A stretch of DNA of 48,364 nucleotides from a virus. Where the stretch lies: the IMG/VR virus record IMGVR_UViG_3300045919_000515, positions 1 to 48,364 of that record; one strand, given 5' to 3'. The notes below the pieces were generated by a model. The model had not been told where the DNA came from and did no database searches. It worked only from the letters and a program-made list of their open reading frames with translations. Within the stretch, counting starts at the first letter, position 1, and every line of letters starts with the position of its first letter. The position numbers were made by a program, and so were the translations under genes. This document shows, in pieces, positions 3,323 to 48,364 of this stretch.

Positions 3323-3640
3323 CTAGTCTAAACTGCCAAATTCACCAGAACCCATTTCTTTACCACGCTGATGAAATGCTTTACCAAATGTACCAAGCTT
3401 ATATCCTTGCGCGTGGGGGAATTTTGAGTAGACTTGCTTGTTTAAATCCAGTTTTGGATCAATTGCAATCACTGTTTTTGATGTGATGCCCGGTTTTTCT
3501 TGGATAGTAATTTCCGCCCAAACCTTCCCATCTGTGTCTGCATCGCCAGGACCGTAAGGTGGATGACTATTATGCTTCCCCAAAGCAATGGAATTATCAT
3601 ACGCTTCGGCAATTAATTGATCATCTTTGATTTGTGGCAT
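3323..3640 (-). CDS. Late protein of unknown function with an LIAEAY leader
   Basis: 105 residues. The N-terminus QLIAEAYDN resembles the EFIAEA capsid-targeting leader of T4 internal proteins, where the prohead protease cuts after Glu. The rest is Gly/Lys/His-rich with no known motif (HPPYGPGDAD near residue 26). The late box TTAAATAA is 4 bases upstream. The leader resemblance is visible; packaging in the head is inference. Confidence 0.7.
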   Translation of the reverse strand: MPQIKDDQLIAEAYDNSIALGKHNSHPPYGPGDADTDGKVWAEITIQEKPGITSKTVIAIDPKLDLNKQVYSKFPHAQGYKLGTFGKAFHQRGKEMGSGEFGSLD

Positions 3641-3644
3641 ATAA

Positions 3645-3652
3645 TTATTTAA
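3645..3652 (-). promoter_or_regulatory. Late-type box TTAAATAA
   Basis: Minus-strand TTAAATAA, 4 bases before the ATG at 3640. Confidence 0.45.
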
Positions 3653-3984
3653 TAACGCGAAGGAAAGTTAATAAAGAGAGGTTTCCGTTCCCCGGAACTA
3701 TCTATGCCTAATTCTTTTTGGCCTGGTTCCGCAGCTTTTCCAGGAACCCAGCGAACGTTGCAAATATCTTTATACTTGAGGAACCACGCCCGGAGTTCCT
3801 TGTTAGTCATTTTATCAGCAAGATGCCTTCCCAGGAACTGCATCAATACAGCTTCCCTATTATAATCTTGGGAACGATTAGTTATAGTTCCTTCAACACG
3901 CTTTGGTCCATTGGAACCAAGAACAATAGCAGAAACATGGAAGTGTCCAGAGTTTTCATTTAAAAATTGCATAAAGGAAATCAT
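3649..3984 (-). CDS. Late protein of unknown function with a T4-type leader (ISFMQFLNEN)
   Basis: 111 residues. It opens with MISFMQFLNEN, the same kind of aromatic leader ending in L-x-E that T4 internal proteins use for capsid targeting (MKTYQEFIAE). The body has a helical middle (NREAVLMQFLGRHLADKM) and ends in LFINFPSRY. The late box ATAAATAA is 4 bases upstream. It is the last gene before the NDFM family and shares the leader style of that family without the NDFM header. Confidence 0.7.
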   Translation of the reverse strand: MISFMQFLNENSGHFHVSAIVLGSNGPKRVEGTITNRSQDYNREAVLMQFLGRHLADKMTNKELRAWFLKYKDICNVRWVPGKAAEPGQKELGIDSSGERKPLFINFPSRY

Positions 3985-3988
3985 CGGT

Positions 3989-3996
3989 TTATTTAT
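3989..3996 (-). promoter_or_regulatory. Late-type box ATAAATAA
   Basis: Minus-strand ATAAATAA, 4 bases before the ATG at 3984 and overlapping the end of the gene upstream. Confidence 0.45.
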
Positions 3997-4253
3997 GCAA
4001 CTGGGTCATGGTCGTTCATTAATAGACCCATCACAGTCTTAATATGGTAATCTATTCGCGGGTGGTTCTTAATATTATCTGGTAAGTCGCGCTGAATATG
4101 ATCAGCAACAAAATGCGTTAAACTTGCAAAATCTCTTGAGCTCTGTTCGTTTTCGTAGTGAGTATATAAATCACCAATATAATCTGAAACAGTGGTGTTT
4201 AACTCTTCTGCCTCTTTCTTTAGATCACTATAAATTAAAGAACGTATATACAA
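3993..4253 (-). pseudogene. Frame-shifted C-terminal part of the three-module NDFM protein
   Basis: This frame has no ATG near its start (first usable codon TTG at 4253). Read further upstream in the same frame it gives DAIEQSDLYIRSL, exactly what should follow the third header NENDFMKGL of the gene at 4235-4840. One missing base near 4276 therefore splits one protein into two frames. The 86-residue segment is helical (DLKKEAEELN, HFVADHIQRDL). It could be an assembly error, a real mutation, or a separately started product. Confidence 0.6.
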
Positions 4254-4840
4254 ATCACTTTGTTCAATGGCGTCAACCCTTTCATAAAATCATTCTCATT
4301 TAAAACTTCTTGATGCTGTAAAATCCAGCGAGCTAATACATCAACAGTAACGCCACTACCAACTACAGCAACTGCTAATGCGTCTCTTATAAAAGAAGGT
4401 GTCGGATCTAGACCATAATGTATCACGTGTCGTAAAAAATCCTTTTTTGTCTGGTCTGAGGTTGGTGTGAGTAATTTCCAATAGCACCAGCGCTCATATG
4501 CTTTTTTTACCATTTCTTCAAAGTTAATATCAACATCATCCAAACCAGCTATAAAGTCCTGATCACTTTCTAAGACCATTTTTGGATTAGCTTGAAGAGT
4601 CTTTAAAAGATCATTTACGTTAACTCCAAATTTTTGTGAAGCTTGTTTAAGTACTTTGCCAGACCAAGTATGTGGATTAACTGAATTGGATGCAAATGTG
4701 TGTGGATTTCTGTTACATGGAAGCACCTCAGTGACTTCCTTCCAACGCTTAAACGCCCAAATTAAGGCACCTTGAATTTTATCAAGTTCATCGACACCAT
4801 TCATGAAATCATTTTCAAAATATAATTTAAATGGCTTCAT
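4235..4840 (-). CDS. NDFM-family protein, three headers, frameshifted at its end
   Basis: The ATG at 4840 gives a leader (MKPFKLYFE) followed by three header copies: NDFMNGVDELDKI (about residue 10), DQDFIAGLDDVDI (about 93) and NDFMKGL (about 184). After each full header comes a helical body with A..A..RW and a V..NDLLKTLQANPK end. Each copy is preceded by a Glu in a [YVL]-x-E context. After the third header the frame runs into a stop 13 codons on, while the expected sequence continues in the next frame (3993-4253). Overlaps its upstream neighbour by 14 bases. Function unknown; possible capsid-internal polyprotein. Confidence 0.75.
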   Translation of the reverse strand: MKPFKLYFENDFMNGVDELDKIQGALIWAFKRWKEVTEVLPCNRNPHTFASNSVNPHTWSGKVLKQASQKFGVNVNDLLKTLQANPKMVLESDQDFIAGLDDVDINFEEMVKKAYERWCYWKLLTPTSDQTKKDFLRHVIHYGLDPTPSFIRDALAVAVVGSGVTVDVLARWILQHQEVLNENDFMKGLTPLNKVICIYVL

Positions 4841-5126
4841 CGATTCCTTTAAACGCACCGGGGTTCTTTTGGAGGTATTTTATAATATATTTAGCACGAC
4901 TCTTACCAACCACTTTAACGAGATCTTCAAAAGCCATCGTAAGTGAACTATAATGTACCCGCAACTCCTCGATAAAAGATTGCAAAGACATTGGAGCGTA
5001 TCCAATACGAAGATATTCACGCCAAGCGAGTTTAATATCACGAAGAATCTCTAGATCTCCTTCAAGGTTGTCTAGACCTTTCATAAAATCGTTTTCAAGG
5101 ACAGTATATAGTTCGTTGAAGGTCAT
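4827..5126 (-). CDS. NDFM-family protein, single helical module
   Basis: 99 residues: leader MTFNELYTVLE, then header NDFMKGLDNLEGDL, then a helical body with IKLAWREY and a ...YLQKNPGAF end. The body matches the modules of the polyproteins upstream (A/I..AW, ..L..NP). The leader is nearly identical to that of the next gene upstream (MTFNELYTILE), so the two arose by duplication. Start overlaps the previous stop by 4 bases. Confidence 0.75.
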   Translation of the reverse strand: MTFNELYTVLENDFMKGLDNLEGDLEILRDIKLAWREYLRIGYAPMSLQSFIEELRVHYSSLTMAFEDLVKVVGKSRAKYIIKYLQKNPGAFKGIDEAI

Positions 5127-5635
5127 TTAATTTTTACTCCGTTTTTATACCACACTTTAGTGCCATCAGCCCATTCCACAGCAGGGCCATCGTCGCGATG
5201 AAGCACTCCGTTTTTATACCACGCTTTAGAGCCATCAGCCCGTTCCACAGCAGGTCCATTATCGCGATGCCATTTTCCATCTTTCCACCACTCTTTGGTG
5301 CCATCAGCATTTTCTATAGCAGGGCCATCGTCGCGATGACGTTTTCCGTTTTTCCACCACGTTTTAGAGCCACTAGCCCATTCTATAGCAGGTCCATTAT
5401 CGCGATGGTGCTCTCCGTTTTTATACCATATTTTAGAGCCATCAAAAGTTAAAACGCAATCTTTTTCTAAACTTTTTGGTTTATTTTTAAGACTTTTAGC
5501 GACCCAACCTTCTCCACACTTTTCTAAGTCGTTTGGATTAACTCCGATTTTATGAAAAAACGCTTCTTTATCAACGTCATCTAAGCCATTCATAAAATCG
5601 TTTTCAAGGATAGTATATAGCTCGTTGAAGGTCAT
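5123..5635 (-). CDS. NDFM-family protein with WYKNG/HRDDGPA repeats
   Basis: 170 residues: leader MTFNELYTILE, header NDFMNGLDDVDKEA, a linker with EKCGEGWVAKSLKNKPKSLE, then repeats of about 26 residues of the form DGSKxWYKNGxxHRDDGPAxEWA (four full copies and a final partial one). Such MORN-like WYKNG repeats are common in phage and bacterial proteins of unknown function. The header-linker part and the final DGSKVWYKNGVKIK are repeated in the next gene upstream, a recent duplication. Confidence 0.8.
   Translation of the reverse strand: MTFNELYTILENDFMNGLDDVDKEAFFHKIGVNPNDLEKCGEGWVAKSLKNKPKSLEKDCVLTFDGSKIWYKNGEHHRDNGPAIEWASGSKTWWKNGKRHRDDGPAIENADGTKEWWKDGKWHRDNGPAVERADGSKAWYKNGVLHRDDGPAVEWADGTKVWYKNGVKIK
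5141..5450 (-). repeat. In-gene tandem repeat, about 78 bases per unit
   Basis: Consecutive units encode the HRDDGPA-WYKNG repeats; the bases are similar enough to be seen directly (gcagggccatcgtcgcgatg recurs). The period is a multiple of three, so copy number can change without loss of frame. Not a CRISPR array. Confidence 0.75.
5454..5605 (-). repeat. Duplicated header-linker segment (copy 1)
   Basis: Nearly identical to 5689-5840: both encode NDFMNGLDDVDKEA and the EGWVAKSLKNKPKSLE linker. The flanking 5127-5160 and 5637-5670 are also the same apart from one base. A recent tandem duplication. Confidence 0.75.
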
Positions 5636-6672
5636 TTAATTTTTACTCCGTTTTTATACCACACTTTAGAGCCATCAACAAACATGATACAATCTTTTTC
5701 TAAACTTTTTGGTTTATTTTTAAGACTTTTAGCGACCCAACCTTCTCCACACTTTTCAAAGTTAGTTGGATTACCTCCGATTTTATAGAAAAACGCTTCT
5801 TTATCAACGTCATCTAAGCCATTCATGAAGTCGTTTTCGAGAAGAGTCGGTGTCCATCTTGATTTGAGCCACCATTGAATAATATTTTTCCATTTAACGC
5901 GGTTGATATCAGCAAAATGATTAACCCAGCTTCTTGCAAATGAGTTCGGTTGACCATAGGCAACATTAATAAAATCGTCAAATTCTCTATCAGTTGTGCC
6001 AAATCGGTCATCTTCTTTCCAATGGCGGTAAGCAGCTTCTAGAACTTTTATATATTTTAGCTCATTATCCACTTCATCAACCCCATCCATGAAGTTGTTT
6101 TCCAATAGCTCTTTTGGATCCATTCGCAAAAGAAGATCTTTTAAAACTGCATAATCTACTTTAAATTTTTTAGAAGCTTCTCTTAATTCATTGCGCGCCG
6201 ATTTTGCTGTGAAAGTTTGGTCACCCTCATCGCTTATAAAATGAATAAATTGCTCATCATCTCCAGGCAGGGCCTCAAATGGTCTCATCCACTCTTCAAA
6301 CGCCCAATCAATTGCTTTTCTGTTTAAATCATCTTCAAGAGCATCAACACCGTCCATGAAGTCATTACTTTCGTTGATATTCATATCATGCGCTTGAGTC
6401 TTTAAAGCTCTATAAAGATCAATTGGCAGAATATTACCAATACTTGCTAAAGAAGTAAACCAGCCGGCTTTAAGAATCTCTGTGGTAAAAGACTCTACTT
6501 TAGCGCGCACATATTTCTTTGCTTGCTGCATTGAGCATCCTTGCACGCGCTGAACATCTTTGATCCAATCATCAAGAACTTTTTGCGCAGCAATAGGCGC
6601 CATTTCATCACCAAACCGCGGCACAACAGCAATTTCGTATAAGAGAGAAAGATCTTTTTGAAATTTATTCAT
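5632..6672 (-). CDS. NDFM-family protein with three headers and a single WYKNG end
   Basis: 346 residues. A first segment of about 100 residues starts MNKFQKDLSLLYE and has no header. Headers follow at about 103 (NDFMDGVDALEDDL), 192 (NNFMDGVDEVDNEL) and 280 (NDFMNGLDDVDKEA), each right after INE, LLE or LLE. The first two bodies are helical (A.DWAFEEW, A.AYRHW); the third is the linker plus one WYKNG unit. So one protein joins two body types behind the same header. (L/I)-x-E is the T4 prohead protease site type; cleavage is inference. Confidence 0.75.
   Translation of the reverse strand: MNKFQKDLSLLYEIAVVPRFGDEMAPIAAQKVLDDWIKDVQRVQGCSMQQAKKYVRAKVESFTTEILKAGWFTSLASIGNILPIDLYRALKTQAHDMNINESNDFMDGVDALEDDLNRKAIDWAFEEWMRPFEALPGDDEQFIHFISDEGDQTFTAKSARNELREASKKFKVDYAVLKDLLLRMDPKELLENNFMDGVDEVDNELKYIKVLEAAYRHWKEDDRFGTTDREFDDFINVAYGQPNSFARSWVNHFADINRVKWKNIIQWWLKSRWTPTLLENDFMNGLDDVDKEAFFYKIGGNPTNFEKCGEGWVAKSLKNKPKSLEKDCIMFVDGSKVWYKNGVKIK
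5689..5840 (-). repeat. Duplicated header-linker segment (copy 2)
   Basis: Partner of 5454-5605. In this copy the repeat array is reduced to one WYKNG unit. Confidence 0.75.
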
Positions 6673-6967
6673 GGTTCATTGTTGCTAGTTTATCAATAGC
6701 ATCGTCAGGCTTTACATTATTTTTTCCAGCCTGATAAAATATATATTTTCGAGCCCTCGATCCCCAAAGATCTCGGCTAACTTTAAAAATACCAAACTCG
6801 ACGTTTCTTGGTTGTTTATGATGAGGATCAGCTAACCACATCTCAAAAGCGTCTTTAACAGTCTTATCAACTGCAGCTTGATAATCAAGATCAGATTGCA
6901 TAGCATCAACACCTTTCATAAAGTCGTTTTCATAGAGCAGTGCAATATCTTTACTAGCTTTATCCAT
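6665..6967 (-). CDS. NDFM-family protein, single helical module
   Basis: 100 residues from the ATG at 6967 (chosen over an upstream start because a late box lies 4 bases before it). Leader MDKASKDIALLYE, header NDFMKGVDAMQSDL, body with AVDKTVKDAFEMW and ...AIDKLATMNHE. The leader matches that of the 7907-9079 gene (MDKTSKDIFKLYE). Overlaps the next gene by 8 bases. Confidence 0.75.
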   Translation of the reverse strand: MDKASKDIALLYENDFMKGVDAMQSDLDYQAAVDKTVKDAFEMWLADPHHKQPRNVEFGIFKVSRDLWGSRARKYIFYQAGKNNVKPDDAIDKLATMNHE

Positions 6968-6971
6968 ATGA

Positions 6972-6979
6972 TTATTTAA
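6972..6979 (-). promoter_or_regulatory. Late-type box TTAAATAA
   Basis: Minus-strand TTAAATAA, 4 bases before the ATG at 6967, inside the 3' end of the gene upstream. Confidence 0.4.
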
Positions 6980-7910
6980 GATAATATTGCTCGACTTCAT
7001 GGAGCGTTATCTTATTGATATTTTGCTGAAGCCAGCGATGAAGAATCTCTTTAGGTATTTTAAATTCTTTAGCAGCATTTTCTATAGAACACATATCGTC
7101 TCCTTTAGCTACCAGTTTTTTAAAAGACTTTAACATGGGCTCTTTTGAACGCTCTCTATAGTGTCCTTTATACCAGGAGCGTTGCGATCCTCGCTCATAC
7201 TCCATAAAAATAATAAAAGCTCTGACACCAGCATTAAAAAAATCATAATCAATAGAATCGAGGCCTTTTATAAAATCATTCTCTTTTAAAGGAAACTTGG
7301 GTTGATACTGATGCGCTAAACGAATAACCTCTTCTTCAGGTATGTCAAAATGACTAGCAAAACCCTCTGCACAATTTTCTATATACTCTACAAGTGCAGG
7401 GTAATATTCACTATACTGAGGCCAGTCAAAAATATCAGCACCATCTGACATTGTTTGCAGAGCAAAAATTAAGTTTTTAATGTGCTCAGCTTCATCAGGG
7501 TTTTTAATATCTTGAAGCAAATCTTGATACTCAGTGCTCATCAAATCCGCAGCCATGAGATATAAAGACTCTGCCATATTTTTATCCTCTTTATCCATGT
7601 TATTTAGCCCATTAATAAAATCATTCTCTTTGAGGAATTTTGGGTTGCTCATGATAAACTCCTTGAGTTCTTCAAACGGTACATTATATGTCTCCGCTGC
7701 CCAATCAACTGAATTTATCGCAGTTGTTCCATTCGCACCGATCCACTTAGTAAAAGCTAGCGGACTAAACCATATCTCGTCAGCTGGAGCGACACCAACA
7801 GGTTTTTTACTATACCATTTTTTGTAAGCTTCTTGAGCAGCTGCAATCATCTTATCCATTTTATCAACACCATCCATGAAGGTGTTTTCAAAATATGTTT
7901 GAAAGTTCAT
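6972..7910 (-). CDS. NDFM-family protein with three modules
   Basis: 312 residues: leader MNFQTYFE, then headers NTFMDGVDKMDKMI (about 9), NDFINGLNNMDKED (about 97) and NDFIKGLDSIDYDF (about 212). The second and third are preceded by FLKE and PLKE. The first body has AAAQEAYKKWY and EELKEFIMSNPKFLKE, the shared plan of the helical modules. The ATGA overlap at 7907-7910 links it to the four-module gene upstream. No enzyme motif is visible. Confidence 0.75.
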   Translation of the reverse strand: MNFQTYFENTFMDGVDKMDKMIAAAQEAYKKWYSKKPVGVAPADEIWFSPLAFTKWIGANGTTAINSVDWAAETYNVPFEELKEFIMSNPKFLKENDFINGLNNMDKEDKNMAESLYLMAADLMSTEYQDLLQDIKNPDEAEHIKNLIFALQTMSDGADIFDWPQYSEYYPALVEYIENCAEGFASHFDIPEEEVIRLAHQYQPKFPLKENDFIKGLDSIDYDFFNAGVRAFIIFMEYERGSQRSWYKGHYRERSKEPMLKSFKKLVAKGDDMCSIENAAKEFKIPKEILHRWLQQNINKITLHEVEQYYLK

Positions 7911-9079
7911 AAAAATTTAACGGCTGCTGCTTTTATTGAATTGTAAAGATCTTTAGGAGATATCTTATACTTGTCACAAGCTATTAAAATACTATCCGGT
8001 GCATGCTTTGCAAGAGACTCTGCAGAAAAGGTTGAGATATTATGTGCCCAATTACGTAAAAGGATCTTATCATCGTGGGTATTGCGTTTAACTCTGCCAA
8101 TGAATTCTTGCGTGGCAGCCATTATTCTATCAACGTTATCAACACCATCCATGAAAGCTTCATCTGATTCAGTGCTTTCATTTATAGTCCAACCTGACTG
8201 GCTCTGCCAATCTAAGACTTCATTCCAAGAGATATCAGCATCTGCGCAGTGTTGCTTTAAACTTTTACGTGCATAACTTCCTCCAAATAGTGCAGCAACA
8301 TCTACAAACCTTAAAAAAGCTGGATTAAAACTATGTCCAATACTTGGATGCTGGCTCCAATCTTTATATGCTGCTTTTAGCACCGCCATGTATTTTAAAT
8401 CTTTATCGAGCGCATCAACGCCATCCATGAAGTTACTCTCTTTCAAGACGTTTGGGTTGCTCTCAATAAACTTTATCACCTCTTTGAAATCAACATTGTG
8501 TTGCGCCGCTGTTATTCGAAGTATTGCAAACGCACGTGACGTATCTACCTGCAAGTATTCAGCAAAACAATCAGGGGCGTCACTCGGTATATGAGTTACG
8601 TAATTAAGCCAAGAATGATAAGCATCGAGAGCGCATTGCTGTATTTTATCTAACTCATCAATACCAGCCATGAAATTTTGATCATTTTCAACTAGAGGTT
8701 TTTTGAATTTATTGACAAGACGTGTTATTTCTTTAGGAGGTAATCTCAAATACTCAGCATACCCATTTGCATGATGCAACAACTCACGAGCAATTTTGTC
8801 AAAAATCTTATTGTATATTGGATTGGTCTCAGCGAGAATATCAGTTAAACTAACGAGGTACTGAAGTTTTGCTACTATATTTTTAACATTTTCTTTATCT
8901 TTGCCTTTTGCAGATTGTTGTATATATCGAAAATCTTGCAATAATACCTCTGCACCAAAATCATATAGCAACCGAGCGTTATATCGATCCTTTGCTTCAA
9001 AATCATCTTCCATCTGATCGACACCAGCCATGAAATCGTTCTCATAGAGCTTAAAAATGTCTTTTGATGTCTTATCCAT
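7907..9079 (-). CDS. NDFM-family protein with four modules
   Basis: 390 residues, the longest member. Leader MDKTSKDIFKLYE; headers NDFMAGVDQMEDDF (about 14), DQNFMAGIDELDKI (about 134), SNFMDGVDALDKDL (about 218) and EAFMDGVDNVDRIM (about 310). They follow LYE, LVE, LKE and INE(STESDE). Bodies are helical, ending in patterns such as FKEVIKFIESNPNVLKE. Each module would be about 80-120 residues if released by cleavage after Glu. The late box CTAAATAT lies 4 bases before its ATG. Confidence 0.75.
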   Translation of the reverse strand: MDKTSKDIFKLYENDFMAGVDQMEDDFEAKDRYNARLLYDFGAEVLLQDFRYIQQSAKGKDKENVKNIVAKLQYLVSLTDILAETNPIYNKIFDKIARELLHHANGYAEYLRLPPKEITRLVNKFKKPLVENDQNFMAGIDELDKIQQCALDAYHSWLNYVTHIPSDAPDCFAEYLQVDTSRAFAILRITAAQHNVDFKEVIKFIESNPNVLKESNFMDGVDALDKDLKYMAVLKAAYKDWSQHPSIGHSFNPAFLRFVDVAALFGGSYARKSLKQHCADADISWNEVLDWQSQSGWTINESTESDEAFMDGVDNVDRIMAATQEFIGRVKRNTHDDKILLRNWAHNISTFSAESLAKHAPDSILIACDKYKISPKDLYNSIKAAAVKFL

Positions 9080-9491
9080 TTTTATATTTAGCGATTAATT
9101 TGTTAAACTCGTCATTCACAATACCAGGAATCTCAGAAATAAACGTTAATCTTCTTCCTTGAAGAGAATACTCTTTAATGGCCTTTTTTGCTGCATTCTT
9201 TATGAAATCAAGATCGGTTGATATAAGCCATCGCTCTAGATCGACTTTTAAAAAGATATAACCACCTTCTAACAACTCGTCGATAAATTGTTGAGGTGAT
9301 GCAAACTTATCAGACCAATAATACTGTGACCAATTTCGCCTAATATCAAAAAGCGTATCTTTTGCAATGGTGATTTGATTATAGTATCCATCTTGCACTA
9401 ATAGAACAAAGACTTCAGCATTTTCTTTTTCTATTTGGTCGAGGCCTGCCATGAAATCGTTCTCCGTGACAAAGTGCTGGAAGGATTTCAT
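9072..9491 (-). CDS. NDFM-family protein, single module, first of the late cluster
   Basis: 139 residues from the ATG at 9491; an upstream in-frame start would run into GC-rich non-coding sequence and is rejected. Leader MKSFQHFVTE closely resembles the T4 capsid-targeting leader (MKTYQEFIAE). Header NDFMAGLDQIEKEN, then a helical body (QQFIDELLEG, LERWLISTDLDFIKNAAKKA). Overlaps the next gene by 8 bases. It opens the late-box NDFM group that runs down to 4 kb. Confidence 0.75.
   Translation of the reverse strand: MKSFQHFVTENDFMAGLDQIEKENAEVFVLLVQDGYYNQITIAKDTLFDIRRNWSQYYWSDKFASPQQFIDELLEGGYIFLKVDLERWLISTDLDFIKNAAKKAIKEYSLQGRRLTFISEIPGIVNDEFNKLIAKYKNG
9084..9091 (-). promoter_or_regulatory. 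Late-type box CTAAATAT
   Basis: Minus-strand CTAAATAT, 4 bases before the ATG at 9079. Confidence 0.4.
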
Positions 9492-9497
9492 ATTTCT

Positions 9498-9505
9498 ATA
9501 TTTAA
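9498..9505 (-). promoter_or_regulatory. Late-type box TTAAATAT
   Basis: Minus-strand TTAAATAT, 6 bases before the ATG at 9491. It is the right-most late box on the minus strand. Confidence 0.45.
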
Positions 9506-9742
9506 AGGGAAAAGTTATAAAATAGTTAAAATGAAGCGCGAATTTTAGAAATACCGAAAATCGCCGCGCAGCGCGGGGGAGCGGGAGCATGGGGCCGCCG
9601 GAACTGGGACCAACTCACTGGCTAGTGAATTTTCCGATGACCGGTTCCGCAGAGAACTTTTTCTCTCGCTAGAGGTACTTTTCTCTCGGAACGGCCATCA
9701 TGCTCGATTATGTGGTGGCTTTATCGCATAAGGTATACATAG
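9506..9742. other. GC-rich non-coding gap
   Basis: No convincing gene. The stretch 9560-9670 is much richer in G+C than its surroundings and holds small inverted repeats (CCGCGC-a-GCGCGG at 9563-9575; ACTGGCTAGT near 9619). Two similar segments (TTTTTCTCTC and TTTTCTCTCG) lie around 9660-9690. It could carry a small structured RNA or a transcription boundary between the two promoter classes; nothing more can be said. Confidence 0.4.
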
Positions 9743-9778
9743 GAAGAGGCTCTAAGCCTTTCAGCCTAGAGCCTCTTC
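9743..9778 (-). terminator. 12-bp hairpin after the GC-rich gene
   Basis: Perfect 12-base stem GAAGAGGCTCTA/TAGAGCCTCTTC with a 12-base loop, 24 bases after the stop at 9803. No T-run follows, so it may end the mRNA by another route or protect its 3' end. Confidence 0.6.
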
Positions 9779-9802
9779 AACATTACGCCGCGAAAGGAAA
9801 GA

Positions 9803-10174
9803 TTAGGCGGTAACCTTCTCTTTCTTCGGCGCGGGCGCTTCCGTCTTGGTGGCGGGCGCCTCAACCGGCTTAGTGGCCACTTTGGCTTTGGCCGCTTCCT
9901 TCTCGGCGCGGACCTCGGCGCGGGCTTGCGCCATCTTCGCTTTGAGCGCTTCAGCAGAGCTCTTGCGGCTCGCTTCCCGAACGGCGCGCTCAGCCTCGAC
10001 CTGCTTCTTGCCGGTCGCGATAATCGCCGCGCGGTTCTTTTCCGCGTTCGAGATGATGAGCGTCATGAGGGCCTTCTCAGACAGACCCGACTCTTCGCGC
10101 ATCTTGACGACGAGAGCTTTGTCGGCTTCCTCGACGAGAGTTGCGGTGAACTTGACTGGTGCTTTAGTGGACAT
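9803..10174 (-). CDS. GC-rich small basic coiled-coil protein (paralogue of 12829-13152)
   Basis: 123 residues. The first 60 (KFTATLVEEADKALVVKMR..GLSEKALMTLI) align with the protein at 12829-13152. The rest is an Ala/Lys/Glu-rich helix with a Pro/Ala/Lys tail. No known domain. The gene is visibly richer in G+C than all neighbours. It has two tandem GGAAC-type promoters upstream (10234 and 10320) and its own hairpin behind, as for a highly expressed single gene. A DNA- or RNA-binding role would fit the charge but is unproven. Confidence 0.75.
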   Translation of the reverse strand: MSTKAPVKFTATLVEEADKALVVKMREESGLSEKALMTLIISNAEKNRAAIIATGKKQVEAERAVREASRKSSAEALKAKMAQARAEVRAEKEAAKAKVATKPVEAPATKTEAPAPKKEKVTA

Positions 10175-10233
10175 GTTATTGCTTTCTTTCGCTAACGTTA
10201 TTGTTTATTGTTAAGCCATTTATTGGCACCTTT

Positions 10234-10249
10234 ATTATATCAAAGTTCC
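10234..10249 (-). promoter_or_regulatory. GGAAC-N5-TATAAT promoter
   Basis: Minus strand GGAAC TTTGA TATAAT, with the -10 about 60 bases before the ATG at 10174. Confidence 0.65.
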
Positions 10250-10319
10250 AGCTAAGCGTAATCGTAAGATCTTTAGTTGTTAGACTTGATAAACATTGGC
10301 GACATCATTTGGCTCCATC

Positions 10320-10335
10320 ATTATATCAGAGTTCC
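10320..10335 (-). promoter_or_regulatory. GGAAC-N5-TATAAT promoter (second, upstream)
   Basis: Minus strand GGAAC TCTGA TATAAT, 86 bases upstream of the first copy; both point at the 9803-10174 gene. The rest of the 10175-10438 gap holds no gene. Confidence 0.65.
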
Positions 10336-10438
10336 ATATTGATGTTGATCGATAAATCGGGACCTGTTCCGGTCTAGAGAAGACTCTAAAGCTTTTCCTT
10401 TATGGAGCCTCCTGGCTAGGGTAGATCGGAAACACTAG

Positions 10439-10867
10439 CTACCTTTGCCAGACGAGAGGAGTTGTAATAGTGTGTACAGCCAAGGCGTTCTGGGCAGCCC
10501 CAAGCACAAGTGGGCTAAAGTCTTGGCTGAAGTCTATAAAGTCTGGCTGGGTCTCAACTTTAGAGCGTAGAGTAATCAAATACCAACCAACGCATATCTC
10601 TTCACCAGCAATGATATGCTTCTCATTATCTTTAGATATAAATGGAGTATCTGTAGCCGTCGGCGACAACACATCCACCCATGTACACTGTTGAGTAGAG
10701 GCCACACGCCAATTACGTGCGACACGCATAGTGGTCGGCCACCAATACTCTCTAAGGCCATAGGGCATAGGCTCACGCTTAAGCTTATATGCAATAGGAG
10801 TATTGCCAATCATATCATCTTCAAGAGCATCAACGCCACTCAAGAAGATATTGTCTGTATTAGTCAT
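10439..10867 (-). CDS. NDFM-family small protein (header IFLSGVDALEDDM)
   Basis: 142 residues. The header begins after MTNTD. The middle contains FISKDNEKHIIAGEEICVGWY, the counterpart of the LL.GEV block in the smaller relatives, and the C-terminus is longer than in them. It is the left-most member of the group of eleven genes without a leader. Function unknown. Confidence 0.65.
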   Translation of the reverse strand: MTNTDNIFLSGVDALEDDMIGNTPIAYKLKREPMPYGLREYWWPTTMRVARNWRVASTQQCTWVDVLSPTATDTPFISKDNEKHIIAGEEICVGWYLITLRSKVETQPDFIDFSQDFSPLVLGAAQNALAVHTITTPLVWQR

Positions 10868-10972
10868 AGATGTAGAAGAGTTATAGGAGCGACAAACCGC
10901 TCTGATATCAACGAGGTTATAATAGCAACGAGAATAATAGAGAGACTTAGAGATCTAAGCGCTCTCAAAGGT

Positions 10973-11227
10973 TCATGATGGCTTCCATTCACTGAGCTTA
11001 TTAGCATCTTTACAATAGCTAAACTGTTCACCCGGCCACACAATTGATTCACGAATAATAATGTCGCCTCTTAAGAGAGCTTCTTGTTGCTCTTTACTGA
11101 ATAGAGAGCTATCAATATGCAGGACTGATGGACTTACGAGGCTGAAATGATGATCACGAACGTATAGCAGCGTTGCTAAGTTCATTTCGCGCTCTAATGC
11201 ATCGACTCCAGCTAAGAAAACATTCAT
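10973..11227 (-). CDS. NDFM-family small protein (header NVFLAGVDALEREM)
   Basis: 84 residues: header at the very N-terminus, then FSKEQQEALLRGDIIIRES and a C-terminal FSYCKDANKLSEW. The pairing of an N-terminal header with LLRG-[DE]-[IV] and a final YC..(x)KL block is shared with the genes from 11.5 to 15.3 kb. The 105 bases behind it (10868-10972) hold no gene I can support. Confidence 0.7.
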   Translation of the reverse strand: MNVFLAGVDALEREMNLATLLYVRDHHFSLVSPSVLHIDSSLFSKEQQEALLRGDIIIRESIVWPGEQFSYCKDANKLSEWKPS

Positions 11228-11496
11228 TCCGCTCTAGGTGTTGAGTTGGTTTAAGTTGTTGGTTACTGAGTAGTTATAGAGACCAGGTGGTTTTGCTATG
11301 GCATCACCACAGCCGGGACCAGGGCCCCAATATGGCGTTCCAGGATTTTGAGGGCTCGGTGGCTGCCGCCCGTGGTGTTATACGCCAAATTACAACACCG
11401 CTCTGCTCTCCGGCAGATCTTATTAGACCGCTCTGCTCTCTGCACAGCATGTTTAACATCATCTAACCCACAGCTCCGGGAAACTGGCGACGAACT
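11228..11496. other. Gap with a GC-rich Pro/Gly patch
   Basis: No supported gene. 11290-11400 is GC-rich and reads as Pro/Gly-rich in two opposite frames: a plus-strand ATG at 11298 gives a 17-residue frame (MASPQPGPGPQYGVPGF), and a minus frame without a start reads PPSPQNPGTPYWGPGPG. CTCTGCTCTC is repeated at 11401 and 11431. It may be a remnant of a lost gene. Confidence 0.35.
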
Positions 11497-11760
11497 TCAC
11501 ATGCACATTTTTTGGGTGAACTGCAAAAGCTTGTAACGATCTCTGCACCAATATATTGTATAGTATCCATTATTTGGCGGTGTTACTACAACCTCTCCTC
11601 TAGCTAGATCATCCTCATACTGCTCATGATTGATACCTAGTTTTTCGCATATATCTTTGAATATATGCCAGTTGTCTGTGGCAGAGTATATACCGTATCT
11701 ACTATAGATTGGCTCTCTTTCCAGCTCAATGATATCTAAGCCTTTGATGAAGTTATCCAT
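11497..11760 (-). CDS. NDFM-family small protein (header DNFIKGLDIIELER)
   Basis: 87 residues. Header, then YSRYGIYSATDNWHIFKDIC, then EQYEDDLARGEVVVTPP and YYTIYWCRDRYKLLQF. Closely related to the 12009-12308 gene (VYGLFEETESWSLFKKHC, EQYRQDLVAGKVVATP), a duplicated pair. Confidence 0.7.
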   Translation of the reverse strand: MDNFIKGLDIIELEREPIYSRYGIYSATDNWHIFKDICEKLGINHEQYEDDLARGEVVVTPPNNGYYTIYWCRDRYKLLQFTQKMCM

Positions 11761-11820
11761 AGTTTATCTTTATCTAAGCAATACTGAAAAATATACTTAC
11801 AGCCAAGCACTTCAATAACC

Positions 11821-12012
11821 TCATTTCTTTATATTACAGAGTTGACAGAATGAGCCGCGTACTGGCGCTGGGAGCGGTGTTGATAATGAGTGCGCATCAC
11901 ATTTACATCTTAGCCATACTGGCCTATCTTTTTTTCTTTTTATATTGTAAGGAGGCCAAATTGTTCGCCGGCCGGCTTGTATGGCTTGCGCTTGAAATTC
12001 TTGAAGCGTCAT
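11821..12012 (-). CDS. Small zinc-finger-like protein
   Basis: 63 residues, basic, with RCKC and a later FCQLC, a likely single zinc site. The ATG overlaps the stop of the NDFM gene upstream by 4 bases, which supports translation. No family recognised. Confidence 0.55.
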   Translation of the reverse strand: MTLQEFQAQAIQAGRRTIWPPYNIKRKKDRPVWLRCKCDAHSLSTPLPAPVRGSFCQLCNIKK

Positions 12013-12308
12013 GTTTTCAATCTGCGTAGTAAGCGATTATAATCGTTCTTGGCAAACACCGTATAATCTTCAAGCTTTTCTTTATGAATGCACCACCATG
12101 ATGCAAAGAACTTATTCTTTGAAGGAGTAGCAACTACTTTACCAGCTACTAAGTCCTGTCTATATTGTTCAGGATCAACCTCGATGCCTTTGCAATGCTT
12201 TTTAAATAAGCTCCACGATTCAGTTTCTTCAAACAATCCATAGACAGAATAGATGTGCGTATCGAGTTCAAACTCGATTGTGTTTAAGCCTGTAATAAAG
12301 TCGTTCAT
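12009..12308 (-). CDS. NDFM-family small protein (header NDFITGLNTIEFEL)
   Basis: 99 residues from the ATG at 12308 (start placed at the header and at the 4-base overlap with the gene upstream). It has EQYRQDLVAGKVVATPS and FASWWCIHKEKLEDY, the shared C-terminal block, plus a basic tail (RLLRRLKT). Sister of 11497-11760. Confidence 0.7.
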   Translation of the reverse strand: MNDFITGLNTIEFELDTHIYSVYGLFEETESWSLFKKHCKGIEVDPEQYRQDLVAGKVVATPSKNKFFASWWCIHKEKLEDYTVFAKNDYNRLLRRLKT

Positions 12309-12565
12309 TTCAGATTCAATGCAATGCAATGTGGCTCGAGATCAGCACAGGAGCCAACACTCTTGCTCGTCATATCTTCCCAGTGATCAGCATTGGCTCC
12401 TGTGCTGGCTTTAATGACCCGGCCCGATGGGTGAACATAGGTGTAAGCCCGAACAAAGCCAACAGCTGATTTTGTTTCGGGTATAAATCCGTACTTGATG
12501 AGTTTTGGGTAGTGCCATTGCTTTTCAACAGGATGTACTACTCTATTTGCTTCTTTAAAGGTCAT
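12305..12565 (-). CDS. Small hypothetical protein
   Basis: 86 residues, aromatic and basic (KQWHYPKLIKYGFIPETK, YTYVHPSGRVIKAS), ending in a Cys/His-containing tail. The central part looks like a beta hairpin. It overlaps both neighbours by 4 bases. Family not recognised. Confidence 0.6.
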   Translation of the reverse strand: MTFKEANRVVHPVEKQWHYPKLIKYGFIPETKSAVGFVRAYTYVHPSGRVIKASTGANADHWEDMTSKSVGSCADLEPHCIALNLK

Positions 12566-12768
12566 ATTGGAATGGTTCGAATTGTTTGTGCTTTCTCTAA
12601 ATTGATAACGTATATCTGATCATCACCAATTTGAATATTAGCAGTGTCGCCATCTAATTGGATTGTGCGCACTTCTTTGCGAAAAGCCATTTGGCGATGT
12701 GTGCATCCGGTTTTAGCATTGATAATCTTTATTTCATTGCGTCCGGAAGTGGTAACGGTAAATTTCAT
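12562..12768 (-). CDS. Small beta-rich hypothetical protein
   Basis: 68 residues with short alternating strands (TIQLDGDTANIQIGDDQIYVI). No motif or signal. First gene after the hairpin at 12776, and it overlaps the next by 4 bases. Confidence 0.6.
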   Translation of the reverse strand: MKFTVTTSGRNEIKIINAKTGCTHRQMAFRKEVRTIQLDGDTANIQIGDDQIYVINLEKAQTIRTIPI

Positions 12769-12775
12769 CAGGGGG

Positions 12776-12805
12776 AAAGGTGTAACGCCATGACGTTACA
12801 CCTTT
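12776..12805 (-). terminator. 12-bp hairpin after the 12829-13152 gene
   Basis: Perfect 12-base stem AAAGGTGTAACG/CGTTACACCTTT with a 6-base loop, shortly after the stop at 12829. No T-run follows on the minus strand. Same design as the hairpin after the paralogous gene at 9743. Confidence 0.6.
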
Positions 12806-12828
12806 CATTGATCTTTACGCATTGTGCC

Positions 12829-13152
12829 TTATGCGGGCACTGCTTGCGCAATAGTATTGCTCAACTCGATCAGCTCTTGAGCGCGTGCACGCTCTGCTTT
12901 GATCTCGTCGCGCGCCTTCTTCATCTTCTGCTGCAGATTGTTGTAATCTGCGGCGCGCTGCTGCAACTGCATCATTTGATGATCTTCGTAGATCCGTTTG
13001 CCTTGAGTGACAATTGCATTTCGGCTCTTTAGGCCTGCTGCAATTACCAGCGACATCAGATCCTTTTCACCAAGGCCGGTCTCTTCGCGGAGTTTAAGAA
13101 CGACACTTTTGTCGGTTTCGTGAACCATCGTAGCGGTGAACTTCTCTTTCAT
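12829..13152 (-). CDS. Small helical protein, paralogue of 9803-10174
   Basis: 107 residues. KFTATMVHETDKSVVLKLREETGLGEKDLMSLVI matches the N-terminal half of the protein at 9803-10174 (in shorter words: KFTAT, DK..V.K.REE.GL.EK.LM.L). It is followed by a coiled coil rich in Gln, Lys and Arg. Base composition is less extreme than the paralogue. It shares the same frame of control: one GGAAA-type promoter about 65 bases upstream and a 12-bp hairpin behind. Function unknown. Confidence 0.75.
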   Translation of the reverse strand: MKEKFTATMVHETDKSVVLKLREETGLGEKDLMSLVIAAGLKSRNAIVTQGKRIYEDHQMMQLQQRAADYNNLQQKMKKARDEIKAERARAQELIELSNTIAQAVPA

Positions 13153-13217
13153 ATGCTTTGTTATTTTTCTGCGTTTTCATTGCTGTATTTAGACTAGCTG
13201 GATTTAATCTCATCATT

Positions 13218-13233
13218 ATTATATCTCTTTTCC
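13218..13233 (-). promoter_or_regulatory. GGAAA-N5-TATAAT promoter
   Basis: Minus strand GGAAA AGAGA TATAAT, about 65 bases before the ATG at 13152; spacing close to that of the paralogous gene. Confidence 0.55.
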
Positions 13234-13252
13234 CTTTGCGCCTTCTCTTTCT

Positions 13253-13528
13253 TTAATAAATTGGATTAGTGTTTCCTCTTTTACAGTAGAAAACTTTATG
13301 ACCTCCTTCCCATATGTGTTGTGTGCAATGTCCTTGCAGGAGATTATTTCGCAGTGCATTGGCACGTTCTCTACCAAACCGAGATGTAACATCCCATTGA
13401 AGCTCTTTAAGCCTTCTTGTACTCTTTTCAGGCCAGTCCTTCATCATCATCATTGAATTCCAATAGTATACCTCGTGATCCTCCAGTTCTTTTTCTAATA
13501 CTGCACATCCGTTAATGAAGTCGTTCAT
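13253..13528 (-). CDS. NDFM-family small protein (header NDFINGCAVLEKEL)
   Basis: 91 residues. Header, then YYWNSMMMMKDW, a basic helix, then NNLLQGHCTQHIW and HKVFYCKRG. The usual GEV is replaced by GHC, and the header Asp by Ala. ATG overlaps the previous stop by 4 bases. Confidence 0.7.
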   Translation of the reverse strand: MNDFINGCAVLEKELEDHEVYYWNSMMMMKDWPEKSTRRLKELQWDVTSRFGRERANALRNNLLQGHCTQHIWEGGHKVFYCKRGNTNPIY

Positions 13529-13785
13529 ACTTTTTTAAATGTTCTGATACCATGAGTGATAACCTCTCCGCGAAGAAGCCGCGCTTCTTCTTCCTTCGAA
13601 AAGATTGGCTCTAGGTTATCTTTAGCAGTTGGGAGAAATACCCAGTGAGTGTCGTTGATAATTGACCAATGTCGTAACTCATCTAGTGTATATCGAAGTC
13701 CAGCATTGTGATACCACATTTCAATTAAAGCCATGCCGTTTAATTCATTTTCAACAGCATCTAAGCCTTTCATAAAGTCATTCAT
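13525..13785 (-). CDS. NDFM-family small protein (header NDFMKGLDAVENEL), short C-terminus
   Basis: 86 residues. Contains FSKEEEARLLRGEVITHG but stops soon after (IRTFKKV) and lacks the final Y-C..KL block, possibly from a slip in a run of A near 13535. Header is a perfect consensus. Confidence 0.7.
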   Translation of the reverse strand: MNDFMKGLDAVENELNGMALIEMWYHNAGLRYTLDELRHWSIINDTHWVFLPTAKDNLEPIFSKEEEARLLRGEVITHGIRTFKKV

Positions 13786-14044
13786 AGAGACTCTTTAGGG
13801 TTTCTTGTTTTAAGGCGTATTTGAGATGGAATGCTCTATTGAGGTCGATAATCTTGCCATTCAACATATCATGGCGAATTTCCTGCCACGGTTTGCCAAT
13901 ATATGATGCTACACCTATTGCAAATTCTTTTAATTTGGAGACGGATACGTAAACTTTGCTGGACTGAGTTGATACATAGTACACTGGAAGATTATCATCC
14001 ATATCTATCTCTAAAACATCAAGGCCTTTTATGAAATTATCCAT
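13778..14044 (-). CDS. NDFM-family small protein (header DNFIKGLDVLEIDM)
   Basis: 88 residues. Header, then VYYVSTQSSKVYVSVSKLKE, then HDMLNGKIIDLNRAFHLKYALKQETLKSL, the family end with Ala in place of Cys. Overlaps neighbours by 8 and 16 bases. Confidence 0.7.
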   Translation of the reverse strand: MDNFIKGLDVLEIDMDDNLPVYYVSTQSSKVYVSVSKLKEFAIGVASYIGKPWQEIRHDMLNGKIIDLNRAFHLKYALKQETLKSLYE

Positions 14045-14270
14045 TGATTGAGTTTTTCTTTATTTGAGCAGTAAAGGAAAGTTATACCAATACTAGTGTA
14101 TCGGAGAATATCACCGCGAAGAAGTATCTCTTTTTGTTCTGGAGACCAATTTTCGTATCCAATATTTCTACTAGAGCGTGCTGCAACAAATCGCGTATCA
14201 GTGCTCTCAAATCGTACCCCAGTGGCATTTCTTCTTCGACAGCATTAACACCATCCATGAAATCATTCAT
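14029..14270 (-). pseudogene. NDFM-family small protein broken by a frameshift
   Basis: The frame from the ATG at 14270 gives the header NDFMDGVNAVEEEM and then unrelated sequence to a stop at 14082. The next frame carries VRFESTDTRFVAAR, SPEQKEILLRGDILRY and FLYCSNKEKLNQW, the full family C-terminus, and ends at 14029 inside the next start. A one-base change near 14220-14230 (GGGG run) explains both. Real decay or a sequence error. Confidence 0.7.
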
Positions 14271-14461
14271 ACCTCTTTTGCGATAATATTGTGATAATTG
14301 AGAAGCTTTTCGAAACGTGCCTCATTAAAAGCTCCAGCATGAACTTCAACCAAAGCGTTTGGCTCTTTCCAAATGAAAGAGAAGCCCTTATTGATAAAAT
14401 CAAGAAGAACCATTTGTGCTTGAGACTTATCAGGGATGAATACTGCGTAGGTTGTTTTCAT
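14267..14461 (-). CDS. Small hypothetical protein
   Basis: 64 residues without the NDFM header: TYAVFIPDKSQAQMVLLDFINKGFSFIW looks like a ferredoxin-like beta-alpha-beta start. Inserted between two NDFM genes, overlapping both. Family not recognised. Confidence 0.55.
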   Translation of the reverse strand: MKTTYAVFIPDKSQAQMVLLDFINKGFSFIWKEPNALVEVHAGAFNEARFEKLLNYHNIIAKEV

Positions 14462-14741
14462 TTAGAAATGATTCTAACTTTTTTCGATTGAGACAATAAT
14501 AATTTGATTCGCCACTAGCCCATGTAATTTTCGTAATTTCATTACGGAGAAGTCTTTTTAACACATTATCTGTAAAATATCTGTGCATACTACTAAACAT
14601 AGTCATTTCATTGAGCTCTTTTAATGTTGACGCTGTTTGAATTATATCTTCACCATATGATGATGAATAGAAATATGGGCGGAAATTGTCTTCTATTTCT
14701 TTCTCTAATAAATCAACGCCAGCAAGAAAGTCGTTATTCAA
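14430..14741 (-). CDS. NDFM-family small protein (header NDFLAGVDLLEKEI)
   Basis: 103 residues. Header, then YFYSSSYGEDIIQTASTLKEL, then LKRLLRNEITKITW and SNYYCLNRKKLESFL. Good match to the family end (Y-C-x3-KL). Overlaps the next gene by 32 bases. Confidence 0.7.
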   Translation of the reverse strand: MNNDFLAGVDLLEKEIEDNFRPYFYSSSYGEDIIQTASTLKELNEMTMFSSMHRYFTDNVLKRLLRNEITKITWASGESNYYCLNRKKLESFLNENNLRSIHP

Positions 14742-15015
14742 GATTATCCTTTCTTAGAGAGTATTTCGCGGAGTGGTGAGAGTCAAAACGAATGCAGACC
14801 ACCTCGCCGCGAAGAAGCTTTTCTCTAAAAGTATCTAATTGGTATGCTAAGCACCTGTTATTCCATTTTGCTAAATGTTCCTCGAGTGGTTTTAGTTTTA
14901 GATTACAATCCATTACACCCAGACTCCATAAGCAATTAAAATATACCAGCAGTTTATCGTTGAGCTCTTCTTCAAGAGCACCAACTCCATCCATAAAGCT
15001 ATCAGGTTGGTTCAT
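14734..15015 (-). CDS. NDFM-family small protein (header DSFMDGVGALEEEL)
   Basis: 93 residues. Header after MNQP, with Ser for Asn and Gly for Asp. Then LKPLEEHLAKW, FREKLLRGEVVCIRFDS and AKYSLRKDNLE. Overlaps neighbours by 8 and 14 bases. Confidence 0.7.
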   Translation of the reverse strand: MNQPDSFMDGVGALEEELNDKLLVYFNCLWSLGVMDCNLKLKPLEEHLAKWNNRCLAYQLDTFREKLLRGEVVCIRFDSHHSAKYSLRKDNLE

Positions 15016-15274
15016 ATGATTCTAGTTTATCTACGTGAATACAATTCCAAACAATTCCATATCCATACCAATTGAAACCAACAACTTCTCCGTTACAGAG
15101 TCTATCTTCAATCTCATTTGCAGGACATGTTGCTGATGTATTATCAGCTCGTTTAAAGCGTTGTATTACTTGTCGAAGTACTTGGGGATCTTCTTTAGTT
15201 TCTCGTATATTCTTATAGAAGACCGGACCATCTAATGCCTTTAACATATCAACACCTTTCATGAAATCGGTCAT
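15002..15274 (-). CDS. NDFM-family small protein (header TDFMKGVDMLKALD), first of the chain
   Basis: 90 residues. Header less conserved at its end. Then VLRQVIQRFKRAD, EIEDRLCNGEVVGFNWYG and IVWNCIHVDKLESYEP. It is the promoter-side end of the NDFM chain that runs down to 10.4 kb; no promoter motif is seen right before it, so it is probably read from upstream. Confidence 0.7.
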   Translation of the reverse strand: MTDFMKGVDMLKALDGPVFYKNIRETKEDPQVLRQVIQRFKRADNTSATCPANEIEDRLCNGEVVGFNWYGYGIVWNCIHVDKLESYEPT

Positions 15275-15565
15275 TTTCTAAATTTATTAAGCATCCAAAC
15301 TGGTGTATGCACTAAACGCCGAAGCATATTCATTACAAATGCACGTCGCTCATTTACAAACTCTGGTTTATTATTATCTAAAGCTTCGTAAAGCGTACCA
15401 AATATCATTCCTTCACCATTTTCAGCCCAATATATCCTATTGAAGCGTTCATAAAGAGGGTGGCAAACGTCGCATTGCTTTTCTTCGTAGAAGTCTCCTT
15501 CAGATGTGCCAGCTGATACAAATTTAATAGCTTTATGTCCTAACTGTCACTGGATGTTTGATCAT
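15271..15565 (-). pseudogene. Cys-containing hypothetical protein interrupted by a frameshift near its start
   Basis: An ATG at 15565 opens a frame (MIKHPVTVRT) that stops after 10 codons. The next frame is open from there to a TGA at 15271 and reads LGHKAIKFVSAGTSEG, EEKQCDVCHPLYERFNRIYW, GTLYEALDNNKPEF and ends LVHTPVWMLNKFRK, but has no start codon of its own. Joined across one base it gives a protein of about 95 residues with a CxxC. The end overlaps the next ATG in the ATGA manner, as for a real gene. Confidence 0.55.
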
Positions 15566-31729: not shown

Positions 31730-31736
31730 TTTAAAG

Positions 31737-47350: not shown

Positions 47351-48364
47351 TCAACGCCCTTTCCTTCTCTAAATTTAATTATGTATGGGAATCTCGGTGA
47401 ATTGTGGCTTCCAAGACCAAAATACTTCACCGTGGCCCACTTGCCAACATATGACTCTTTATTCTTCCAGATGTCTTTGAGAAATTTATGATTACCTTTG
47501 ATGTTAGATCTGAATGTTTCATATCCTGGATTGTCCATCAGCATGGCGCCAACCATTCCAACCTTATTTCCATTACCTTCGATAACGTCGAGAATTTTAT
47601 ACTCAGCATCATCAAAATCTTTACGTTTGAGTAAATAGCTTGAACGTTTTTTCTCATATGGCTCATTAAAGCGAATCATAGAGCCTTCATATCCTTGATC
47701 TAGAAACTTGACGTGATAATTGTCGAGATCTGCTTCACTAAAGCATTCAAAGGTTGGAACAATAACAATTACATTGTCAATCGCTCCATCAGCTAAATTA
47801 TCAGCAAGAAGCTTTGTGAGTTTTTCTTGTCGCTTAATAAATGTTAGCGTTGGGTCAATAATATCATAAATCCAATATTGGACCTTTTCAGCAGATTCTG
47901 CAAGATCATCTTTTGTTGGTTTTTTCTTCTTAACCAAGCTCATAATCTTATCAAAATCGTTCTTAAGCTTATGAGTATAGAGCTCTCCATCAGTTTCAAG
48001 CTCTGGAGCGGCTGCAAACACTGGAGCTAGCACGTCTATAATATGCGGCACTGTAATCCAAGGTTTACCATTACGAGAAAATGGGCCATTATCCGATTGT
48101 ACATTTCTAGCACCATCCATTTTTGGCTGGACAAAAACTCTTCCACCGGCTTTAAGATATTTGAGAACTTCTTCGCGTCTATCTTTATAATTTTTAGCAA
48201 GCATTGGCTCTGTCCAAAAATCATTATCAATATCTTTAATATCTGGAAAGTATCCACTCTCTGTTTTACGTTGCCAGATTTGCTGCGCTTCAAAAAGTGC
48301 CTGGTCATCAGCGTCGCGTTCATTAGCTCTCCCCTCATTGGTAATAATTGCCGTGTATGGTTTA
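47347..48364 (-). CDS. ATP-dependent DNA ligase, 5' part outside the window
   Basis: The frame is open to the window edge (338 codons plus stop visible); an internal ATG at 48204 is not the true start, because the upstream in-frame text (NEGRANERDADDQALFEAQQ, then IWQRKTESGYFPD) matches the N-terminal WGR-like domain seen in such ligases. The core has FVQPKMDGAR (motif I, Lys forms the AMP adduct), ETDGELY (motif III), QGYEGSMIRF (motif IV) and YLLKRKDFDDAEYKI (motif V), then an OB-fold region with KWATVKYFGLG. It joins DNA nicks; RNA ligase activity cannot be excluded. Confidence 0.85.
   Translation of the reverse strand, partial: KPYTAIITNEGRANERDADDQALFEAQQIWQRKTESGYFPDIKDIDNDFWTEPMLAKNYKDRREEVLKYLKAGGRVFVQPKMDGARNVQSDNGPFSRNGKPWITVPHIIDVLAPVFAAAPELETDGELYTHKLKNDFDKIMSLVKKKKPTKDDLAESAEKVQYWIYDIIDPTLTFIKRQEKLTKLLADNLADGAIDNVIVIVPTFECFSEADLDNYHVKFLDQGYEGSMIRFNEPYEKKRSSYLLKRKDFDDAEYKILDVIEGNGNKVGMVGAMLMDNPGYETFRSNIKGNHKFLKDIWKNKESYVGKWATVKYFGLGSHNSPRFPYIIKFREGKGVD

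Follow-up and report, generated by a model that had tools for sequence, protein, structure and literature searches.

A short header shared by different protein bodies in a T4-superfamily phage, with leaders and junctions suggestive of head-packaged cargo

The environmental viral record IMGVR_UViG_3300045919_000515, analysed at its full length of 48,364 bases (the window), encodes an expanded gene family whose members share a short header, NDFMxGVDxxExE, in front of different protein bodies. A six-frame scan of the window (F[MIL]xG[VL]D with flanks) found the 28 header copies in 19 genes that an original prediction had counted, all of them on the minus strand between positions 4271 and 15265. 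Eight genes at 4.2-9.6 kb hold 17 of the copies; the other 11 belong to 11 small genes at 10.4-15.3 kb, where they occupy the N-terminus or lie close to it. The genome total is larger, since the adjoining 109-kb contig carries eight more headers, giving 36 in about 157 kb, and more than half of these are preceded by signals resembling the packaging and cutting tags of virus heads. The best explanation, in which we place about even confidence, is that the family represents head-packaged, proteolytically released cargo of a T4-superfamily myovirus, partly encoded as tandem polyproteins, with the header as a docking element.

In its strict form the header pattern was seen 25 times against 0.05 expected from residue shuffles, with a maximum of two in 2,000 shuffles. 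With a profile hidden Markov model, none of the 36 genomic copies scored below 14.5 bits, whereas nothing in about 1.5 Mb of related viral DNA scored above 7.5 bits. Mean pairwise identity in alignments of the two main body classes is 48% and 47% within the header and 18% within the bodies; the invariance of F3 and G6 in the header tables is partly by construction, because the search pattern demands both. Where copies share a residue, their codons agree at 63% of two-fold sites and 39% of four-fold sites, where codon usage predicts 61% and 32%. Synonymous codon choice is thus close to random, which implies that the copies are old and that selection has kept their residues; the header is conserved as a protein and not as a DNA repeat. 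These codon data support the tag half of the earlier view, with docking as the putative role.

The bodies behind the header are helical modules, an LLRGEV type and WYKNG repeats, with modules of about 85 amino acids (aa) and many bodies acidic. Aligning the profiles of the helical and LLRGEV classes with hhalign joined 13 columns, those of the header alone, which bears out the claim that a short conserved element precedes truly different bodies. The model of a helical module (module 1 of 6972-7910) has five helices, with a mean predicted local distance difference test score (pLDDT) of 89.8 and a predicted template modelling score (pTM) of 0.80, and the header opens helix 3-25. The model of an LLRGEV-type protein (14734-15015; pLDDT 84.0, pTM 0.68) consists of a helix, a hairpin, two helices and a hairpin, and again the header opens the first helix. 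As modelled, the header would be an amphipathic, N-capped helix whose hydrophobic residues occupy positions 3, 4, 7, 10 and 14. Neither model had a clear match in Foldseek or VIA-align 2: the best Z values were 5.0, for TnpE of Shigella flexneri over 56 residues, and 4.4. From the weak homeodomain-like structural matches we do not claim DNA binding. WYKNG-repeat bodies are found in 5123, whose product has 77-78% identical proteins on the 109-kb contig, in the tail of 5632 and in two genes of that contig, and two relatives have a WYKNG-like repeat of 35-40% identity. We call these repeats YwqK/MORN-like, with no family match confirming the name; they resemble those of such proteins, and here they are joined to leader and header.

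The surroundings of the header, absent from the original prediction, include leaders, [L/I/V]-x-E junctions and late-promoter-like boxes. All eight genes of the first block start with 8-13 residues ending in Glu, three of them via an internal ATG. A resemblance to a T4 capsid-targeting sequence is seen in MKSFQHFVTE (gene 9072), in which five of 10 residues are identical and three conservative relative to the T4 IPII propeptide MKTYQEFIAE (residues -10 to -1); the other leaders, of 8-13 residues, are less alike. T4 propeptides target proteins into the prohead, with residues 4 and 7 mattering most, and T4 gp21 cuts behind L/I-X-E (PMC9026906). Positions 4 and 7 of MKSFQHFVTE are both aromatic, and the leaders end in Glu in 12 of 12 cases, with L or I at P3 in eight. 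Leader and header also occur apart (3649 and 3323 have the leader only, 11 genes the header only), so the header itself was rejected as the packaging signal. The packaging role suggested earlier gains support, but from the leader and not from the header, because these 11 window genes have a header without a leader.

Internal headers do stand between modules, as had been described, and are better read as standing directly behind a probable protease site. In eight of the 10 internal headers an [LI]xE ends at most four residues upstream; with [LIV]xE the count is nine, owing to a VLE, and in the tenth an INE lies five residues upstream. The background for the same test is 4.7% for [LI]xE and 5.9% for [LIV]xE. 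Across the junctions the middle residue and the flanks differ (VLNE, ELLE, TLLE, FLKE, PLKE, PLVE, VLKE, TINE), whereas L/I and E are retained. In 5632-6672 the final unit is, judging from its sequence, a recent fusion: it matches a gene on the 109-kb contig with 95% nucleotide identity over 193 bp, and the match begins at the junction Glu codon (GAA). At the end of the block, the third header copy of the open reading frame (ORF) 4235-4858 has no body, because the stop falls 13 residues after the header core begins. ORF 3993-4253, with which the original prediction opened its interval of header genes, has no header; it is possibly the shifted body of this third module, and the overlap may stem from module decay, a frameshift or an error in assembly.

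The 109-kb contig, IMGVR_UViG_3300045919_000631 (109,280 bases, eight headers), is almost surely the continuation of the window's genome or of a nearly identical one; its left end overlaps the right end of the window with one mismatch, and the idea that it was a separate relative was therefore dropped. Its genes include T4-superfamily tail genes and one for a terminase; the latter is 37% identical to its best GenBank match, from Cyanophage P-TIM40. Related terminases are found in at least 194 IMG/VR contigs, the best 79 other loci being 55-73% identical. In three relatives Peptidase_S77 lies close to gp23, and the capsid proteins of these three contain L/I-x-E followed by A in their N-terminal region. 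On the 109-kb contig the head-closure gene is flanked by two leader and header genes within a late operon; none of the five relatives inspected has a header gene at this locus, where the neighbouring genes are kept. In relatives, 19 genes in 13 loci (some of them near-duplicates) start with M...DLIFEAY and continue into different bodies, and this leader probably represents a capsid-targeting leader family of this clade. At L034:218-1267, L037:4803-5705 and other loci of relatives, neighbouring small genes have this common leader and unrelated bodies.

An [N]ATAAATA box, which agrees with T4 late promoters, is located about 13 nucleotides (nt) before the start codon of sheath, tube and fibre genes. 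On the 109-kb contig (L013-L018) and at 1602-2105 and 3649-3984 of the window, many virion genes have this box some 13 nt ahead of their ATG, a distance that leaves almost no mRNA leader. In a looser, exploratory test (TAAAT[AT] within 18 nt of the start), the box precedes half of the leader genes (6 of 12), compared with 1 of 15 leaderless genes, 45 of 224 other genes and 2.0% of random positions (exploratory Fisher p 0.024 for leader against leaderless and 0.025 for leader against other genes). A box of this form also stands before the sheath, tube, fibre and terminase genes. Two related genes, 29437-30177 (plus strand) and L013:19529-20158, which are 38% identical and by eye GIY-YIG endonuclease-like, both lie behind a late-type box on the strand opposite to their neighbours.

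From these features we infer a route of packaging, cutting and docking. The leader block (4.2-9.6 kb) would encode late head-packaged proteins, and a short N-terminal capsid-targeting leader would bring each precursor into the prohead core. A gp21-type prohead protease would then cut behind [L/I]-x-E, by which the leader would be removed and the modules of multi-module genes separated. Cutting at the junctions would place nearly every header at a mature N-terminus, as is already the case in the small genes. Packaged products and leaderless ones made in the cell would then, with few exceptions, begin with NDFMxGVDxxExE or only a few residues away from it. The modelled header helix most likely serves to dock the various bodies on a single shared partner, either within the virion or within the infected cell; a 13-14-residue tag on unrelated bodies, probably packaged and unpackaged alike, points to one partner. 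The bodies may act on the host, in takeover or counter-defence, as T4 internal proteins do, an anti-defence function being an analogy with T4 IPI* and not a result (PMC3012670). We put forward tentatively that, in the assembling head, the prohead protease divides the cargo polyproteins into as many as four small proteins for each gene, and that every N-terminus so formed exposes the docking helix also found on the cell-made set, with one addressing tag and two delivery routes (packaged and cell-made). If the junctions are cut, polyproteins would let phages pack many cargo proteins with one targeting leader, and ejected proteins could be predicted from sequence as a leader followed by repeated [LI]xE and header. 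To our knowledge, one-leader cargo polyproteins would be new for T4-type heads.

Several observations weigh against this explanation. In four of the 12 leaders P3 is neither L nor I (YFE twice, VLE, VTE), and P1' is mostly Asn or Ser, compared with Ala in T4 and relatives. The nominal p of about 1e-9 for the junction motif is overstated, because the modules are homologous. Furthermore, [LI]xE is not exclusive to junctions, since some last modules carry it close to their C-terminus (IDE in 4827, LHE in 6972) and it also occurs in the interior of modules. In the helical-module model the header, and with it the first 10 residues, has the lowest confidence (pLDDT about 70). Leaderless header genes, 11 in the window and four on the 109-kb contig, argue against the header itself as a packaging signal. 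Moreover, protease and major capsid genes were not found on the window and the 109-kb contig; the genome is therefore incomplete and the protease is inferred from relatives.

We regard it as a real possibility, somewhat short of even, that the leaderless proteins are a separate cell-made set (for example for host takeover or inhibition) whose header binds a host target, the leader block being the injected version; this refines the head-packaged cargo explanation and does not exclude it. Late-type boxes are rare before leaderless genes, and the LLRGEV-type body occurs both with a leader (79256-79612 on the 109-kb contig) and without one (most small window genes), as such a division would have it. 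The first gene of the small block, 15002, nevertheless has a late-type box, AATAAATT, which also counts against the cargo explanation, since the two blocks may then not differ in timing.

A rather unlikely alternative is that the cargo is packaged uncut, as multi-domain chains in which internal headers mark ordinary repeat boundaries and [LI]xE is kept by duplication of blocks composed of xxE, header and body. The modules are indeed homologous tandem units, some terminal modules end in [LI]xE too, and polyvalent multi-domain proteins that are packaged whole exist, such as the N4 virion RNA polymerase (PMC5512222). Block duplication does not readily account for P2 and the flanks being free to vary while L/I and E persist, nor for the recent fusion in 5632, which matches from the Glu codon only, so that the two preceding leucines come from the recipient. 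It is improbable that the header is helix 1 of one ancient fold with bodies diverged beyond recognition: the header does start a longer N-terminal helix running into the body in both models, but one class is all-helical, one is alpha/beta and the third consists of WYKNG repeats, and the profile similarity stops after 13 columns. Most doubtful of all is a recombination handle, with conserved 5' DNA for in-frame body swaps and a protein sequence of little weight, which could draw on the 95% identical header and body transfer starting at the junction GAA and on the apparent insertion of leader and header genes into an otherwise conserved operon, but is largely refuted by the near-random synonymous codons, since codons would be preserved under selection at the DNA level; recombination may still occur as a by-product.

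Among known systems, the T4 proteins IPI, IPII, IPIII and Alt have a similar short, aromatic-bearing N-terminal leader ending in x-x-E. T4 internal proteins are abundant, are ejected into the host, are mostly of unknown function and are diverse apart from their common leader. The present proteins likewise combine variable small bodies with a common leader in a T4-superfamily phage with a gp21-type protease in relatives. Unlike the T4 internal proteins, which are single units, they comprise up to four fused modules, each behind [LIV]xE, and they have a second common element, the header, which is also found on leaderless proteins. The inner-head families A and B of giant phage SPN3US resemble them as expanded phage-specific virion paralogues, virion status being predicted here from sequence; family B has up to 20 members and its copy number differs among phages (PMC5694885). 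In the SPN3US families, however, paralogy is seen over their length together with an AxE protease motif and long propeptides, whereas the 13-14-residue header alone is common to the classes described here. Polyvalent proteins likewise have several domains, are predicted to accompany the DNA into the cell and are in some cases processed (PMC5512222), but their domains are disparate, often enzymatic and often accompanied by their own metallopeptidase, while the modules here match no enzyme or peptidase family. Several recognisable disparate domains, as in polyvalent proteins, were not found, and no Pfam or PHROGs family exceeded the cut-off for the header or bodies of any scanned protein.

Exact-pattern scans of IMG/VR for the header returned the adjoining contig and chance matches, nothing further; ENDFMxGxD occurs in one record besides the window, the 109,280-base contig. 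The header was not found among 50,697 phage records, in species genomes or in about 80 relatives with 55-73% identical terminases, and tblastn against phage records with a long member and a pooled query gave no credible header relative. An alignment search confirmed none of 39 pattern matches as relatives, and 68 matches in species genomes were rejected as chance or as an internal motif of a spirochaete protein of about 566 aa. Eight related records contained no N-terminal header family of other sequence. A PDB sequence search with header and bodies gave chance-level matches only, and a structural relative could still exist. Neither the header nor phage head-cargo polyproteins were described in the papers searched, a partial library. 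Within the reach of the collections, the similarity is limited to this phage; the original prediction would have counted this against a tag, and we do not, because with synonymous codons this close to saturation the copies must have been diverging for a long time.

Table 1. Features of the header gene family and its surroundings in the window. A slash marks the end of a leader or junction motif; AF2, AlphaFold2.
Feature	Position	Strand	Details
Late-promoter-like box TTTAAATA	9499..9506	-	7 nt before ATG at 9491
Leader gene, first of leader block	9072..9491	-	MKSFQHFVTE/NDFMAGLDQIEKE and body of ~115 aa; ATG 9491 probably true start
Late-promoter-like box GCTAAATA	9085..9092	-	Before 7907-9079
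Polyprotein, 390 aa	7907..9079	-	Leader MDKTSKDIFKLYE/, four header modules; junctions PLVE/ND, VLKE/S, TINE/STESD
Polyprotein, 312 aa	6972..7910	-	Leader MNFQTYFE/, three header modules; junctions FLKE/ND, PLKE/ND
Late-promoter-like box CTTAAATA	6973..6980	-	Before ATG at 6967
Leader gene	6665..6967	-	MDKASKDIALLYE/NDFMKGVDAMQ and one helical module; internal ATG 6967, ORF opens at 7000
Polyprotein, 346 aa	5632..6672	-	Leader MNKFQKDLSLLYE/, header-less N-terminal region, headers at INE/SNDFM, LLE/NNFM, LLE/NDFM
Leader gene	5123..5635	-	MTFNELYTILE/NDFMNGLDDVD and WYKNG-repeat body
Leader gene	4827..5126	-	MTFNELYTVLE/NDFMKGLDNLE and one helical module
Polyprotein	4235..4840	-	Leader MKPFKLYFE/ (internal ATG 4840), two helical modules, third header VLNE/NDFMKGL
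Small ORF without header	3993..4253	-	Other frame, overlaps cut-short third module of 4235-4858
Late-promoter-like box CATAAATA	3990..3997	-	Before 3649-3984
Leader gene without header	3649..3984	-	Capsid-targeting-like leader MISFMQFLNE/
Leader gene without header	3323..3640	-	Leader MPQIKDDQLIAEAY, resembles DLIFEAY leaders of variable head-operon genes in relatives
Leaderless header protein, first of small block	15002..15274	-	MTDFMKGVDMLK; box AATAAATT at 15281-15288
Small header protein	14734..15015	-	MNQPDSFMDGVGALEEE, LLRGEV-type body; AF2 pLDDT 84.0
Small header protein	14430..14741	-	MNNDFLAGVDLLEKE, TTG start
Small header protein	14082..14270	-	MNDFMDGVNAVEEE
Small header protein	13778..14044	-	MDNFIKGLDVLEID
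Small header protein	13525..13785	-	MNDFMKGLDAVENE
Small header protein	13253..13528	-	MNDFINGCAVLEKE
Small header protein	12009..12308	-	MNDFITGLNTIEFE, internal ATG 12308 as start
Small header protein	11497..11760	-	MDNFIKGLDIIELE
Small header protein	10973..11227	-	MNVFLAGVDALERE
Small header protein, 142 aa, different body	10439..10867	-	MTNTDNIFLSGVDALEDD
Contig overlap	48212..48364	.	152/153 bases match left end of IMGVR_UViG_3300045919_000631

Besides the header genes, there are other paralogues in the window. Within or beside the small header block, 9803-10174 and 12829-13152 are two paralogues with the pattern KFTATxVxExDKxxVxKxREExGLxEK... Three consecutive paralogues at 31083-32558 have a near-identical start (HSFVDLITNSSSE), that is, a kept N-terminus with diverging bodies. 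A row of glycosyltransferase-like genes is located at 36794-40411, of which 39137-40411 has two tandem homologues in the relative G012 with 39% identity.

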